Positions 9,075 to 28,625 of a stretch of DNA of 35,491 nt are shown here, piece after piece (the first letter of the stretch is position 1; every line of letters starts with the position of its first letter). The notes under the pieces were generated by a model. The model was not told where the DNA came from, ran no database searches, and worked only from the letters and a program-made list of their open reading frames with translations. The DNA is from Planctomycetaceae bacterium. GTDB taxonomy: Bacteria > Planctomycetota > Planctomycetia > Planctomycetales > Planctomycetaceae. The position numbers and the translations under genes were made by a program. The stretch covers positions 1 to 35,491 of the forward strand of contig JANQQW010000246.1 of NCBI GenBank assembly GCA_028284885.1, given 5' to 3'.

Positions 9075-11033
9075 ATGGCCACGGAACACGGGTTTCGCGA
9101 AAAGCTGCGGTACCGCGTCGACAACTTCCTCGGACGCGGCAGCGGGGCGCTCTTCCTCGCGCTGCTCGTCGCGTTCTTCGCGTCGCTCGGCCTGATCGTC
9201 GCCGTGCGGTTCGTCTTCACCTTCGTGACACCCGACCCGGAGACGCCGTTCAAGCAGCAGATCTGGTTCACCTACCTCCAGATCACCGACCCGGGCAACA
9301 TGGCCCAGGACAACGGCACCCCGATGATCTACAAGCTGACGGCCATCGCCTCCGGCATGACGGGCGTGGTCATCTTCTCGGCCCTCATCGCCTTCCTCAC
9401 CACGGCGCTCGACCAGTCGATCGAGCACCTGAAGAAGGGGCACAGCCGGGTGCTCGAGTCCGGGCACACCATCATCCTCGGCTGGGGGCCCCGCGTGATC
9501 GAGATCCTCCGTGAGCTCGTCGAGGCGAACGAGAGCGAGGACGACCCCGTCGTCACCATTCTCGCCGAGGAGGAGAAGGAGGAGATGGACGAGTACCTCC
9601 GCACGAACTTCCGCGACCGCCGCAACACGCGGATCGTCACCCGGAGCGGCTCGACCGCGTCGCTGAACATGCTGGAACGGGTGATGGCGAAGGACGCGAA
9701 GAGCGCGATCGTCCTCGCCGGCTGCGGCCCGGCCTCGACGACGTCCGAGAAGCTCGCCAGCGACGCCCGCGTGGTGAAGTCCGTCCTCGCCCTCGACGCC
9801 CAGACCGCCGACGCCGAGGAGTTCAGCATCGTCGCCGAGCTGTTCGACGAGCGGAACCGGCAGGTCGTCCGCGACATCTCGCCCGGCCACGTCGTCGTCG
9901 TCGACGCGGAGGAGATTCTCGCCAAGATCATGGTCCAGACCTCGCGGACGAGCGGCCTGTCCGTCGTGTACGCGGAGCTCCTCAGCTTCGAGGGCTGCGA
10001 GATGTACTTCCACCAGGACGACTGGGGCGGCATCCCGTTCGGCAAGCTGCAGTACCACTTCCCGGACGGCGTGCCGGTCGGGCTCCGCCGCGCGGACGGC
10101 AGCCTGCTCGTCCGGCCGCCGGTCGACATGCCGCTCGCGGACGACGACGAGATCCTGATCGTCGCCGACGACGACTCGACGATCGAGTTCCGCAAGGAGC
10201 CGGTCGCGACCCCCCGGGACGAGCCGGTCCCGGACGTGAAAGCGGACCGGCGGCAGGAGAAGATGATCATCCTCGGCTGGCGGCCGAAGGCCTCGATCAT
10301 CGTCTCCGAGTACGCCGACTACGTGCTCGACGGGTCGACGGTCGATGTCGTCGTGAACGGGTACTCGGAGAAGACCCGCGCCGAACTGGAGGGTCTGAAC
10401 GACGAGCTCGACTCCGTCGACGTCGCGCTGCACGACAAGAACCCGCTCGACAGCGACGACCTCGAGTCGCTCGACCCGTTCTCGTACGACACGATCATCG
10501 TGCTGCCGCAGCGGCCGGACGACGAGATCGACGCGGACCGGACCGACTCCGAGACGATCGTGGTGCTGCTCCACCTGCGGCGGATGTCGCGGGAGCTGAC
10601 GGACCAGGGACGGCCGCCGCAGTCGAAGATCATCACGGAGGTGCTCGACTCGGACAACCAGGATCTGATCAGCCGGGCGGGGGTGAACGACTTTCTGATC
10701 TCGAACCGCATCGTGTCGATGGTCTTCTCGCAGCTGAGCGAAGAGCCGCGGATCCTGCAGGTGTACGACGACCTGTTCCAGGAGGAGGGGTCGGAGATCT
10801 ACGTGAAGCCGGCCGCTTTGTACTTCGAGAACCTGCCGGTCACGCGGACGTTCGCCGACCTGATGGCGGTCGCGCAGAAACGGGACGACGAGGTCTGCAT
10901 CGGCTACAAGCTGAAGAGCCTGGAGGGGGACGCGGACGAGAACTTCGGCGTGAAGCTGATCCCGCTGAAGGACTCCGAGGTGACGCTGACCGCCGAGGAC
11001 TGCCTCGTGGTGGTCGCGGAGGACGACCTCTGA
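9075..11033 (+). CDS. CASTOR/POLLUX-type ion channel with two RCK-like cytoplasmic domains
   Basis: ATG start at 9075; 652 aa. The membrane part has TM1 (about residues 24-48), a pore loop with WFTYLQITDPGNMAQD (filter-like TDPGNMA, 71-77) and TM2 (about 86-111). This layout matches the CASTOR/POLLUX (DMI1) family, whose plant members have an ADAGNHA-type filter in the same place. Two Rossmann-type RCK domains follow: GHTIILGWGPRVIEIL (130-145) and KMIILGWRPKASIIV (about 396). Each is followed by nucleotide-fold strands and acidic stretches that could bind ligands. Plant members are nuclear-envelope cation channels of symbiotic calcium signalling; bacterial members are barely characterised and probably sit in the inner membrane. 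The next gene is a CaCA exchanger. The ion selectivity cannot be read from sequence. Confidence 0.88.
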   Translation: MATEHGFREKLRYRVDNFLGRGSGALFLALLVAFFASLGLIVAVRFVFTFVTPDPETPFKQQIWFTYLQITDPGNMAQDNGTPMIYKLTAIASGMTGVVIFSALIAFLTTALDQSIEHLKKGHSRVLESGHTIILGWGPRVIEILRELVEANESEDDPVVTILAEEEKEEMDEYLRTNFRDRRNTRIVTRSGSTASLNMLERVMAKDAKSAIVLAGCGPASTTSEKLASDARVVKSVLALDAQTADAEEFSIVAELFDERNRQVVRDISPGHVVVVDAEEILAKIMVQTSRTSGLSVVYAELLSFEGCEMYFHQDDWGGIPFGKLQYHFPDGVPVGLRRADGSLLVRPPVDMPLADDDEILIVADDDSTIEFRKEPVATPRDEPVPDVKADRRQEKMIILGWRPKASIIVSEYADYVLDGSTVDVVVNGYSEKTRAELEGLNDELDSVDVALHDKNPLDSDDLESLDPFSYDTIIVLPQRPDDEIDADRTDSETIVVLLHLRRMSRELTDQGRPPQSKIITEVLDSDNQDLISRAGVNDFLISNRIVSMVFSQLSEEPRILQVYDDLFQEEGSEIYVKPAALYFENLPVTRTFADLMAVAQKRDDEVCIGYKLKSLEGDADENFGVKLIPLKDSEVTLTAEDCLVVVAEDDL

Positions 11034-11167
11034 GGGCCTGTTCGGAAAGTCGCCGGAGTGTGGTAGGTCGGGCACTCTTGCCCGTCCACGCCGTCCGTTT
11101 CGGGGCCGAGACGCCTTGGCGACGGGCAGGAGTGCCCGTCGTACGGACTTCTCGGACGACCTCTGAG
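11021..11167. repeat. Hairpin element with inverted 20-mers, flanked by an exact 14-bp direct repeat
   Basis: GGACGACCTCTGAG occurs at 11021-11034, where it holds the channel gene's stop codon, and again at 11154-11167. The 119 bp between them (11035-11153) carry two inverted copies of one palindrome. The imperfect copy is at 11067-11086 and GACGGGCAGGAGTGCCCGTC is at 11121-11140; each can also fold on itself with an 8-bp stem. The exact flanking duplication is what an insertion with target-site duplication would leave. The same palindromes recur at 26234-26307. Confidence 0.8.
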
Positions 11168-11340
11168 ATCGGCGGGCGATCCGGTCGAGTTCGTTGCGAC
11201 GCGCGACCGCACTACGGTAAATGGTGTTCTCAACCTTCCGCGGTCGCGCACCGGCGGGTCCTCCGGCCCGGTCGTCCGCCCGCGAAGTCCAGCCGCACGA
11301 GAGGCGACTCCGTCGCTCGCACGGGGTTCAGGAGTAGTCG
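11168..11340 (+). other. Spacer between the hairpin element and the exchanger gene
   Basis: The full gap between the channel stop (11033) and the exchanger start (11341) is 307 bp. Its first half is the repeat element. The rest holds no open frame I would support and no convincing promoter hexamer pair. A TACGGTAAAT stretch near 11213 is the only AT-rich patch. A GTTCAGGAGTAGTCG segment just before 11341 contains the ribosome site (CAGGAG) of the exchanger gene. Confidence 0.5.
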
Positions 11341-12699
11341 ATGAGCGATGACGCGCCGGCATCGTCCGATTCCGATTCCGACGACGGGATCGACGTGAAG
11401 GGGCTGGGTGTGGCGGTCGTCGCCGTCGCCTGCCTCGGCCTGTTCTGGATGCTGGGGCCGGCGTGGAAGCTGGCCTACCTGTTCGCCGAGGTGGTCGTCA
11501 TCTCGATCGTGATCTGGCAGGCGTGCGACCCGTTCGCCGACGCCGCCCAGTGGATCGGCGAGACGTTCAAGCTGCCCGGCTCGGTCCGCGGGGCCACGCT
11601 CGACGCGATCGCGAGCTCCATGCCGGAACTGTTCAGCGGCATCTTCTTCGTGCTGATCGCGGTGACGGCCGTCGGCGAAGGAGGGACGCAGCAGGCCCTC
11701 GAGGCGGCCGGGGCCGAGGGGTACGGGGCGACCATCGCCACCTGCGCCGGCAGCGCGGTCTACAACATGATGTTGATCCCGGCCGTCTGCGCACTCGTCA
11801 TCTCCTTCTACCGCACGTCGCGGCCGGTCATCGACGTGGAGGACGACGTGATCGCCCGCGACGGACTGTGGTTCGTCTGCTGCGAGATCCTGCTCATCCT
11901 GTTCCTGTTCCAGGACCAGATGTACTGGTGGATGGGCCTCGTCTTCATCGGGCTGTACGTCGTCTACATCGTCCAGCTCTCGCGAGACGCCGGGAAGTTC
12001 CGAGGCAAGATGGCGAAGGTCCGCGAGCACCTGGAGGGACCGGGGGCCGAGGCGGACGAGGACACGGTCGTCCGCGACCTGAAGGAGAGCGGCGTCCGCG
12101 TCTCGCGGGCGCACGTCATCAAGGCCCGGGAGGGGGACGGGGAGGAAGAGGACGACGACTCGGCCGGCATCCTGTTCGGCGTCGCCGACGTCCCGCTCAA
12201 CATGGTGACCGCCTGGACGGTGATCGTCGTCTCGACCGCGTTCGCCGCCGGGGCCTGCTACTTCCTCGTGGACGCGACCCGCGCGGCGGCCACGGAACTG
12301 GGCGTGCCGACGTTCTTCGTGGCGGTCATCGTCGCGGCGGCGGCCTCGTCGGTGCCGGACACGTTCCTCTCGATCGGCTCGGCGATGCGGGGAGACGACT
12401 CTGGGGCCGTCTCGAACGCGTTCGGGTCGAACATCTTCGACATCTGCATCTGCCTGTCGATCCCGCTGCTCGTCAACTCGTACCTCACCGGATGGCAGCC
12501 GGTCAGCCTGCTGCAGGACGGGGAGCCGATCCCGGGCCTGGTCGGGCTCCGGATTCTGCTGGTGGTCCTCACGATCGTCACGCTGGCGATCATCTGGCAC
12601 AACCGGCAGCTCACACGGACCAAGGCGTTCGTGCTGTGCGGCTTGTACGGTGTGTTCATCGCCTACGCAGTGCTCGGCTCGCTGGGCGTGCTGTTCTGA
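11341..12699 (+). CDS. CaCA-family sodium/calcium-type exchanger, inner membrane
   Basis: ATG start at 11341 with CAGGAG 5-10 nt upstream; 452 aa with around ten hydrophobic segments. The two alpha repeats are clear. GATLDAIASSMPELFSG (84-100) carries the S-x-P-E motif of alpha-1. ASSVPDTFLSIGSAM (about 333-347) with NAFGSNIFDICI (about 360-371) carries the S-x-P-D and GSNxFD motifs of alpha-2. These acidic residues bind the cation in CaCA exchangers. Between the two halves is a long charged cytoplasmic loop with an acidic run (EGDGEEEDDD, about residues 262-272), which might sense cations. The family usually extrudes Ca2+ against Na+ or H+ influx. The coupling ion here is unknown. It lies just after the CASTOR/POLLUX channel gene. 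Confidence 0.92.
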   Translation: MSDDAPASSDSDSDDGIDVKGLGVAVVAVACLGLFWMLGPAWKLAYLFAEVVVISIVIWQACDPFADAAQWIGETFKLPGSVRGATLDAIASSMPELFSGIFFVLIAVTAVGEGGTQQALEAAGAEGYGATIATCAGSAVYNMMLIPAVCALVISFYRTSRPVIDVEDDVIARDGLWFVCCEILLILFLFQDQMYWWMGLVFIGLYVVYIVQLSRDAGKFRGKMAKVREHLEGPGAEADEDTVVRDLKESGVRVSRAHVIKAREGDGEEEDDDSAGILFGVADVPLNMVTAWTVIVVSTAFAAGACYFLVDATRAAATELGVPTFFVAVIVAAAASSVPDTFLSIGSAMRGDDSGAVSNAFGSNIFDICICLSIPLLVNSYLTGWQPVSLLQDGEPIPGLVGLRILLVVLTIVTLAIIWHNRQLTRTKAFVLCGLYGVFIAYAVLGSLGVLF

Positions 12700-26199: not shown

Positions 26200-26233
26200 C
26201 GAGCGATTCAGAGTCCGTCCGAGCAATCCGTAC

Positions 26234-26307
26234 GACGGGCACTCCTGCCCGTCGCGACCGCGTGTCGGACGCGAGATGGCCTGCATGGACGGGCAGGAGT
26301 GCCCGTC
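26234..26307. repeat. Second copy of the hairpin element, between convergent genes
   Basis: GACGGGCACTCCTGCCCGTC at 26234-26253 is the exact reverse complement of 26288-26307 and also of 11121-11140. The match to the first element extends to 27 bp (26227-26253 against 11121-11147 inverted). The 34-nt centre differs. It lies between the stops of the DUF1552 gene and dprA, where it could also act as a bidirectional terminator. No exact flanking direct repeat is apparent here. Confidence 0.85.
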
Positions 26308-26341
26308 CTACGGTTCAGTCACCCCCTTTTCGGACAGACAG

Positions 26342-27472
26342 TCAGTCGGGGCGGACGAGCAGGTTGCCCGGCAACCGGCGGATCATCCGCTTCATCTCCA
26401 GGACGGTCAGCGTCGCGAGCACTCGCGAGGGTTCGAGTGCCGTGCCGCGGATGACCTCGTCGACGTGCCTCGGCTCGGTGGCGACGAGGTTCAGGATCGC
26501 CCGTTCCTGGTCGGTCAGAGTCAGCTCGCGGGGGTCACGAACCGTCGCAGTGGTGTCACCGGCGGACGTGTCGGTCGGCGTCGGCAGTGGGCCGAGCGCT
26601 TCGAGGACGTCGTCCACGCCGCGGCAGAGAATCGCACCGTCGCGGACGAGGTCGTGGCAGCCCTCGCTGGCGAGACTGTCGATCGAGCCGGGCACGGCGA
26701 GGACGCTGCGGCCCTGCTCCATGGCGTGCCGGGCGGTGTGGAGCGTCCCGCTCGTCCGGGACGCCTCGACGACGATCACGCCGAGCGACAGCCCGGCGAT
26801 GAGGCGGTTCCGCTGGGGGAACATGCCGGGCAACGCGGCCTGATCGAGGGGGGACTCGCTCAGCAGCACGCCGTTCCCGACGACGTCCTCGGCGAGCTCC
26901 CCGTGTTCCGGCGGGTAGACGTTGTTGACCCCGGTGGCGAGCACGGGGACCGTTCGCCCCCCCGCGGCGAGGGCCGCGCGGTGGGCGACGCCGTCGATGC
27001 CCCGGGCGAGTCCGCTGACGACGGTCACCCCTGCCCGTGCGAGTCCGCCGGCGAGACGTTCGGCCACTCGGCGGCCGTAGACCGTGCACCGCCGCGCGCC
27101 GACGATTCCGACCGCGATCTCGTCACGCGGGGCGAACCGGCCGCGAGCGAACAGCAGCGGCGGCGGGTCGAAGATCTCGGCGAGGCGTCTGGGGTAGCCT
27201 TCGCCCGCCTCGGACAGCAGTTCGACGCCGAGCGATCGGCAGCGACCGACCATCCGGTCCGCGGCCTCTCGCGTGTCGGAGGCCGTGATGGCCGCGGCGA
27301 GTTTCGGTCCGATGCCGGCGACGGACCGCAGGTCGTTGACCGAGGCGTTCAGCACGGCCGTCGCGTCGCCGAAACGGTCGAGCAGCGCCCGTTGCATGCG
27401 GGGGCCGAGCCCGGGGACGAGTGTCAGACGGACGAGATCGACCGGGGTCTCGGCTCGGTCGGCAGTGGACAC
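26342..27472 (-). CDS. dprA: DNA-processing protein DprA
   Basis: GTG start at 27472-27470 with GGAG 8 nt upstream; 376 aa. Residues 10-65 form helix-hairpin-helix-like repeats (LTLVPGLGPRMQRALLDRFG and LRSVAGIGPKLAAAI). The central Rossmann SMF domain follows: VGIVGARRCTVYGRRVAERLA (121-141), VVSGLARGIDGVAHRAAL (151-168), ATGVNNVYPPEH, FPQRNRLIAGLS and VVEA. These are the DNA- and RecA-interaction blocks of DprA. The last 65 residues look like the C-terminal winged-helix domain. DprA binds incoming single-stranded DNA and loads RecA during transformation. No other competence gene lies nearby. It starts 25 nt after aroB, so the two are probably co-transcribed. Confidence 0.95.
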   Translation of the reverse strand: MSTADRAETPVDLVRLTLVPGLGPRMQRALLDRFGDATAVLNASVNDLRSVAGIGPKLAAAITASDTREAADRMVGRCRSLGVELLSEAGEGYPRRLAEIFDPPPLLFARGRFAPRDEIAVGIVGARRCTVYGRRVAERLAGGLARAGVTVVSGLARGIDGVAHRAALAAGGRTVPVLATGVNNVYPPEHGELAEDVVGNGVLLSESPLDQAALPGMFPQRNRLIAGLSLGVIVVEASRTSGTLHTARHAMEQGRSVLAVPGSIDSLASEGCHDLVRDGAILCRGVDDVLEALGPLPTPTDTSAGDTTATVRDPRELTLTDQERAILNLVATEPRHVDEVIRGTALEPSRVLATLTVLEMKRMIRRLPGNLLVRPD

Positions 27473-27497
27473 GTCGCGGGCTCCGAAGGAACGCGGT

Positions 27498-28625
27498 TCA
27501 CTCGGCGAGCACGGCCCGCACGTCCTCCTCGGGCACGTCGTCGAACGTTCGCACGTGGCCCATCCGGGTCGGGAGCACGAACCGAATCCGGCCCCCCACG
27601 TTCTTCTTGTCGAGCCGCATCCGGTCGAGGACGGCTTCCGTGGAGAGTTCGACGTTGTTCGGCAGTTCGGTCGACAGGCCGAACGCTCGCAGCAGCTCGA
27701 CCTGTCGCTCGGTGACCTTCGCGTCGACCAGGCCGCGTCGTTCGGCCAGTCGGCTTGCGCGGACCATTCCGACGGCCACCGCCTCGCCGTGCCGCAGGTC
27801 GTCGTATCCGGTCAACGCCTCGTAGGCGTGGGCGAAGGTGTGGCCGTAGTTGAGCACGGAACGGAGTCCGCCGCGTTCGTACTCGTCCTGTTCGACGATG
27901 TCGGCCTTCAGTCGGCAGCAACGCGCGACGACGGCCCGCAGCACGTCCGGCTTGCGGTCGTTGACCTCCTCGACGTGCTTCTCGAGGAACTCGAAGAAGC
28001 CGCCGTCGAGGATGACCCCGTACTTGACGACCTCGGCGAGACCGCAGCGGTACTCGCGGTCGGGCAGGGTGTCGAGCAGGCTGGTGTCGACGAAGACGCC
28101 GAGTGGTTGGTGGAAGGCGCCGACGAGGTTCTTGGCCTTGGAGAGGTTGATGCCGACCTTGCCGCCGACCGAGCTGTCGACGTCGGCGAGCAGCGTTGTC
28201 GGGACCTGGACGAACGGGACACCTCGGCCGTAGGTCGCGGCGACGAAGCCGGCCAGGTCCCCAACCACCCCGCCTCCCACGGCGACGACGACCGTGTTCC
28301 GGTCGGCCTTCAGCTCGACGAGTTCCTCGTAGCAGCGGGCGGCGGTCTCCAGGCACTTGGAACGCTCGCCCGGTTCGAGCGTCGTGCCCCCAACTGTCCA
28401 GCCTTGGGACTCGAGCGACTTGCGGACGGCGGCGGCATGGGGTTCGACGTTGCGGTCCGTGACGACGAACGCGGTTCCGCCGACGAGGCCGCCTCGCTCC
28501 CTTTCCTCCAGCCACGTCCGGAGATGCTGCACGAAGGACGGCGTGGCGGCCGTGTCGATGACGATCTCGTAGCTTCGCGGGCCGAGGTAGACCTGTACGG
28601 TCGTGGCCGACTGGGATTCGCTCAC
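27498..28625 (-). CDS. aroB: 3-dehydroquinate synthase
   Basis: GTG start at 28625-28623; 375 aa. The open frame extends far upstream to 31247 antisense to prkA, but only this part is AroB. The NAD site has VVAVGGGVVGDLAGFVAATYGRG and VPTTLLADVDSSVGGKVGIN, then KNLVGAFHQP. The zinc ligands of the family are in place: Glu198 in LAEVVKYG, His262 in NYGHTFAHA and His279 in RHGEAVAVGM. The enzyme converts DAHP to 3-dehydroquinate, the second step of the shikimate pathway, in the cytoplasm. The ribosome site is weak (GAG about 10 nt upstream). dprA follows on the same strand. Sequence is complete with no missing residue. Confidence 0.97.
   Translation of the reverse strand: MSESQSATTVQVYLGPRSYEIVIDTAATPSFVQHLRTWLEERERGGLVGGTAFVVTDRNVEPHAAAVRKSLESQGWTVGGTTLEPGERSKCLETAARCYEELVELKADRNTVVVAVGGGVVGDLAGFVAATYGRGVPFVQVPTTLLADVDSSVGGKVGINLSKAKNLVGAFHQPLGVFVDTSLLDTLPDREYRCGLAEVVKYGVILDGGFFEFLEKHVEEVNDRKPDVLRAVVARCCRLKADIVEQDEYERGGLRSVLNYGHTFAHAYEALTGYDDLRHGEAVAVGMVRASRLAERRGLVDAKVTERQVELLRAFGLSTELPNNVELSTEAVLDRMRLDKKNVGGRIRFVLPTRMGHVRTFDDVPEEDVRAVLAE

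Follow-up and report, generated by a model that had tools for sequence, protein, structure and literature searches.

A dispersed 130-bp repeat with putative IS1031-like ends and a GTAG REP dimer core at gene 3′ ends of a Planctomycetaceae bacterium

Behind a channel gene in the window (the whole 35,491-nt stretch of Planctomycetaceae DNA that was analysed, from contig JANQQW010000246.1) lies a 130-bp repeat which, with a probability of about three in four, is a non-autonomous MITE with IS1031-like ends that carries a GTAG REP dimer as cargo and was inserted at CTGAG, duplicating the TGA stop codon of the gene. The composite is new, but the two kinds of bacterial repeat joined in it are known ones, so that it is not unprecedented. 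It belongs to a dispersed family with recognisable ends, and directly visible in the copies are a TNA duplication with a matching N, a location at gene 3′ ends, a register with stop codons, and palindromes that are the best conserved part of the sequence.

The first-pass annotation had described an exact 14-bp direct repeat with two inverted 20-bp palindromes between its copies, and this was confirmed, GGACGACCTCTGAG being found at 11021-11034 and again at 11154-11167 with 0 mismatches, 133 bp from start to start and with 119 bp between. The left copy (plus strand, as are all features of this element) consists of host coding sequence, TGA and the first base of the element; it was said to take in the last 14 nt of the channel gene plus one, when it is in fact the last 13 nt plus one base, as the CDS ends at 11033. 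The right copy consists of the element terminus, TGA and a host G. The 119 bp had been taken as the element itself. An anchored alignment of 25 genomic copies, in which those matched on the minus strand were reoriented beforehand, gave instead an element of 130 bp at 11034-11163 (33 + 20 + 34 + 20 + 23 nt), and because the aligned copies place the element there, the right-hand GGACGACCTC is included as element terminus rather than host DNA.

The left outer arm (11034-11062), common to the 7 long copies, has the terminus GGGCCTGTTC (family consensus GAGCCTGTCC) and is IS1031-like, comparable to the inverted repeat of ISLrh, GAACCTGTCT.... It is followed by the GTAG tag of the left REP (11063-11066), which shows 72-89% per-base conservation in the old copies and is found as GTAG/CTAC in other genomes of the family, and by the left palindrome GTCGGGCACTCTTGCCCGTC (11067-11086), with one mismatch against the family consensus. 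A 34-nt spacer (11087-11120), constant in length in nearly all copies, separates this from the right palindrome GACGGGCAGGAGTGCCCGTC (11121-11140), which is inverted relative to the left. The right arm GTACGGACTTCTCGGACGACCTC (11141-11163) has its last 10 bases within the 14-bp repeat, and the family consensus there is GGACRGACTC. In the orientation of the window copy the layout in the anchored alignment is CTNA / GAGCCTGTCCGGAAAGTCGCCGGAGTGTG-GTAG / GACGGGCACTCTTGCCCGTC / 34-nt spacer / GACGGGCAGGAGTGCCCGTC / GTACGGACTTCTCGGACAGACTC / TNAG. The termini across the aligned copies read GRGYCTGTCC...GGACRGACTC, with GAACCTGTCC as the terminus of the copy at locus L005, and terminal inverted repeats are present in imperfect form (GAGCCTGTCCGGAAAGTC against GAGTCTGTCCGAGAAGTC; GGAAAGTC against GAGAAGTC). 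The element is short, non-coding, dispersed and multi-copy, as a MITE is.

The first-pass annotation had proposed looking for the element elsewhere in the genome. The 147-bp stretch was used to search the genome to which the window belongs (6.47 Mb, 399 contigs), and about 25 separate, dispersed copies were found, 7 of them long (the window copy included) and 18 with mainly the core conserved. A pattern search for the palindrome in the same genome, allowing up to 2 mismatches, returned 55 forward sites against 6 in a reversed control, and these sites fell into about 25 pairs with hardly any singles. A second, older copy lies in the window itself on the minus strand (26211-26341), between a DUF1552 gene and dprA, which are convergent; its duplication on the dprA side is the dprA stop codon (TCA on the plus strand, from 26342). 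An open reading frame at 26276-27715 begins inside this second copy and is probably spurious. In ten or so old copies the outer arms have left no trace, and the REP dimer may have been spreading or persisting without them. Beyond this genome, the left outer arm at up to 2 mismatches had no match among 169 further genomes of the family, an outer-arm 20-mer had just two matches in genome_contigs (in Riflebacteria and Thiothrix, where the rest of the element is absent, and which are taken as chance), and the element was absent from the plasmid and phage collections searched. The element with its outer arms has so far been found in this genome alone. The gene content of the genome includes PSCyt1, PSD2-5 and DUF1559, which suggests a planctomycete-type setting.

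The left TGA (11031-11033) is the stop codon at which the channel gene CDS (9075-11033) ends, and it recurs on the right at 11164-11166; a TNA flanks the other long copies in the same way. The left and right pentamers are CTGAG/CTGAG in the window copy and CTCAG/CTCAG, CTGAG/CTGAG, CTCAG/CTCAG, CTGAG/CCGAG, CTCAA/CTCAG and CTCAG/CTCAG in the remaining long copies; the second window copy has CTGAC/CTGAA. The copy with CTCAA/CTCAG has a deletion in its right arm, and the right-hand triplet of L005 is CGA rather than TNA. The N was identical left and right in 8 of 8 copies (the 7 long copies and the second window copy), C in some and G in others, and given that C and G alone are in use the chance of such agreement is 1 in 256. 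Since inverted ends would make the N complementary, and complementarity was seen in 0 copies, the TNA is a duplication and not a part of inverted ends, and the expectation that other copies would be flanked by duplications was borne out. As judged from the aligned copies, the target duplication is 3 bp (TNA) or at most 5 bp (CTNAG), in a CTNAG context, the two sizes being indistinguishable because C and G also suit inverted ends. The target-site duplication proposed in the first-pass annotation is therefore real, though its size according to the other copies is this one and not 14 bp.

The channel gene is of Castor/Pollux type (PF06241, E=4e-23). Its sole ortholog found in the family, in genome G060, is 36% identical and aligns to residue 650 of 652, ending ...IIVLAED against ...LVVVAEDDL here; because of this alignment the channel gene is not considered truncated, and as the duplicated TGA keeps the stop codon, the earlier proposal of an insertion at the end of the coding region that left the gene intact holds. 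With neighbouring genes predicted by codon usage, 25 of 25 copies had the 3′ end of one or more predicted genes beside them; most lay between convergent gene pairs and 0 between divergent ones, and at L005 a distance of 67 bp separates the hairpin from the end of the gene upstream. The duplicated TNA coincides in register with the TGA stop of a neighbouring predicted gene in 6 of 7 long copies, and the second window copy likewise sits on the dprA stop codon. For comparison, 71 other CTSAG sites in the stretches of this genome that were read included 9 stop codons and 21 intergenic sites, which gives a binomial probability near 3e-5 for 6/7 against 9/71, and of about 0.004 against 9/30 when coding sites are left out. 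This excess may reflect survival rather than targeting, an insertion there restoring the stop. In a further copy, at locus L009 in C28, the left gene continues into the REP as far as the TAG contained in the GTAG tag, and its stop codon appears to come from the element.

The inner core was compared with the GTAG REP superfamily, in which a head-to-head dimer has its palindromes inverted with GTAG directly outside each (Di Nocera et al. 2013; PMC3733652); the same source places the superfamily in Planctomycetes (R. baltica) among others, and describes REP dimers nested in larger palindromes in other bacteria. By its sequence the core is a GTAG-tagged REP head-to-head dimer of REPIN type. Its left tag is GTAG, and its right tag is GTAC in this genome and GTAG (CTAC on the plus strand) in relatives. 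A further 9-12 genomes of the family contain these palindromes flanked by GTAG left and right, with spacers that differ in length. One relative (G085:C452:1350-1485) has the palindrome not as dimers but in short arrays, repeated in tandem every 29 bp.

The outer part was compared with the IS1031 group of the IS5 family, which exclusively generates 3-bp TNA repeats and in which ISLrh has inverted repeats that begin GAACCTGTCT and an insertion at TGA (PMC12016507). The assignment as IS1031-like is made because the ends and the TNA duplication match this group, and about 10 bases together with the duplication support the view that the outer part is an IS1031-like MITE. The annotation had placed the mobilising enzyme outside the window and proposed looking for a RAYT or other transposase. 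PF01609 and PF13586, which would mark an IS5-type transposase, had no match in this genome, a draft of 399 contigs in which an IS can be missed. PF07592 (ISAzo13 type) also had no match there, nor in any control genome, and is hence uninformative, and a search with the terminal inverted repeats for an autonomous partner gave no convincing non-MITE pair in the genome.

Within the element, conservation is concentrated in the palindromes. In the 18 older copies the mean identity to the consensus is 94% and 99% for the palindromes, 71% for the spacer and 50-55% for the outer arms, and the GTAG/GTAC tags reach 72-100% per base, values to be read with the bias toward conserved palindromes that comes from finding copies by similarity. 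Almost no pair combines an intact palindrome with a decayed one, although the search could detect such pairs. The hairpin region (11063-11144) folds at z = -5.0 as DNA relative to shuffled sequence. Changes on both sides that preserve pairing occur in 4 cells within palindromes and in 0 across both; an identical change accounts for 3 of the 4, perhaps inherited from a single event. A single long hairpin spanning the two palindromes is disfavoured, as covarying cells are seen only in the local arrangement (4 vs 0); two local hairpins appear to fit the aligned copies better. The hairpins are perhaps kept at gene ends as terminators or as protectors of mRNA 3′ ends.

The exact 14-mer at 133 bp is more than chance, yet just its last 3-5 bp are duplicated in other copies. 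A 119-bp element with a true 14-bp target duplication, made in one event by a transposase of unspecified kind, would explain why both sides are identical and why the three bases that depart from the family right terminus are exactly those of the host. We nevertheless consider it very unlikely, as the exact flanking repeat is no longer than 5 bp (CTNAG) in all other long copies and the ten bases before the right TNA are GGACRGACTC or a near variant in every other long copy with a complete right end, so that a lost terminus would be required together with a chance host site resembling the terminus at 7/10 positions. Of 10 positions in the consensus terminus the host coding end has 7 in common, and at the other three the window copy carries the host's bases; the 14-bp identity in this copy is suggestive of a local conversion over a short tract, or of a template switch, involving two stretches that were already alike. 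Although the two sites are unrelated, the left flank of L005 (GAACGACCACTGAG) shares 12 of its 14 bases with that of the window copy (GGACGACCTCTGAG), which may be chance or a sign of a wider target preference.

Two further explanations dispense with the IS1031-like ends as the mobile part. An ordinary REPIN, moved by a RAYT (HUH Y1 transposase) without target duplication and with the TNA symmetry and outer arms incidental, would lead one to expect a RAYT gene flanked by GTAGGACGGGCA.... This explanation draws on the GTAG tags and inverted palindromes, a REPIN hallmark (PMC3733652), on the occurrence of the core elsewhere in the family with spacers that vary, on copies that are core only, and on four matches to a Y1 (RAYT-type) transposase in this genome, Y1 genes being present in relatives also. 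However, the palindrome was absent around the 4 own-genome Y1 matches and at 27 of 28 loci examined from relatives, which are a part of all Y1 matches there, and the exception (L132) is a single weak match with one mismatch, so that no examined Y1 gene is clearly flanked by the palindrome. The right tag in this genome is GTAC and not GTAG, and outer arms of 33 and 23 nt with a matching TNA in the long copies are not predicted by RAYT mobilisation, which leaves this explanation unlikely. At the Y1 locus L063 the RAYT-like domain lies between 103-bp direct repeats (1173-1275 and 1822-1924), 91% identical and unrelated to the palindrome, and its frame continues into an apparent lysyl-tRNA-synthetase-like gene. 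That the elements are bidirectional terminators or RNA 3′-end elements which arose in place, without transposition, would suit the location of all 25 copies at a gene 3′ end, mostly convergent and never divergent, and the folding of each palindrome at about -20 kcal/mol as RNA. It is, however, very improbable: the spacer and outer arms common to the copies already refute independent origin, the copies have flanking duplications, a search for intrinsic terminators (a GC-rich hairpin, then a T run) gave no terminator-like site and no T run in 10900-11400, and no Rfam family came near threshold as a known structured RNA.

We thus favour the MITE with IS1031-like ends and a REP dimer as cargo. The pre-insertion site would have read ...GACCTCTGAGATCGG..., with ...GGACGACCTCTGAGATCGG... 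present once. Insertion would have taken place at a CTGAG site where the channel gene ends, the TNA there being TGA, so that the stop codon was duplicated; the gene would keep the same last codon and two strong hairpins would be placed behind it. Movement would have been in trans, by a DDE transposase of IS5/IS1031 type that is now presumably absent from the genome or unassembled. Insertions at stop codons would survive because the duplication restores the stop, and the palindromes may then be retained as 3′-end hairpins that would terminate transcription in both directions or protect the 3′ ends of mRNA. A bolder version, that the composite fuses two unrelated transposition systems, prefers C-TGA-G stops and had its hairpins kept by selection later, as the mobile ends decayed, is possible and is offered only tentatively; if true, each insertion would bring a two-way hairpin module to the end of a gene and leave that gene undamaged. 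The window copy illustrates a harmless way for a mobile element to settle in densely coding DNA: its target being a stop codon, the gene keeps its end and gains a hairpin. It also offers a specific example of a REP dimer carried within DDE-type ends, which bears on how REPs spread where no matching RAYT is found.

In comparison with known systems, the element makes a 3-bp TNA duplication like the IS1031 group, TGA both here and in ISLrh, and its terminus GRGYCTGTCC resembles the GAACCTGTCT of ISLrh; unlike these insertion sequences it carries a REP dimer in place of an internal transposase gene, and an autonomous partner was not found. With GTAG REP dimers, REPINs and BIMEs (PMC3733652) it shares GTAG directly outside a palindrome with an 8-bp stem, two inverted copies with the tags outside, heterodimer loops (CTCT vs CTCC), a spacing of 20-100 bp and a position near stop codons between convergent or co-directional genes. 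It differs from them in its right tag GTAC, in the enclosure of the dimer by outer arms with TNA duplications, in its few copies, and in that no RAYT flanked by its REP was found. The first-pass description as MITE- or REPIN-like was accordingly right in that both kinds are present, but they are nested and not alternatives, the IS1031-like ends lying outside and the GTAG-type REP dimer inside. Such nesting recalls GTAG-15 of A. variabilis and the REP/TIR composites of Pseudomonas, in which a larger inverted-repeat structure likewise encloses, or is joined to, a REP dimer or unit; the sequences differ, and the cited part of PMC3733652 mentions neither a 3-bp TNA duplication nor a stop-codon register for them.
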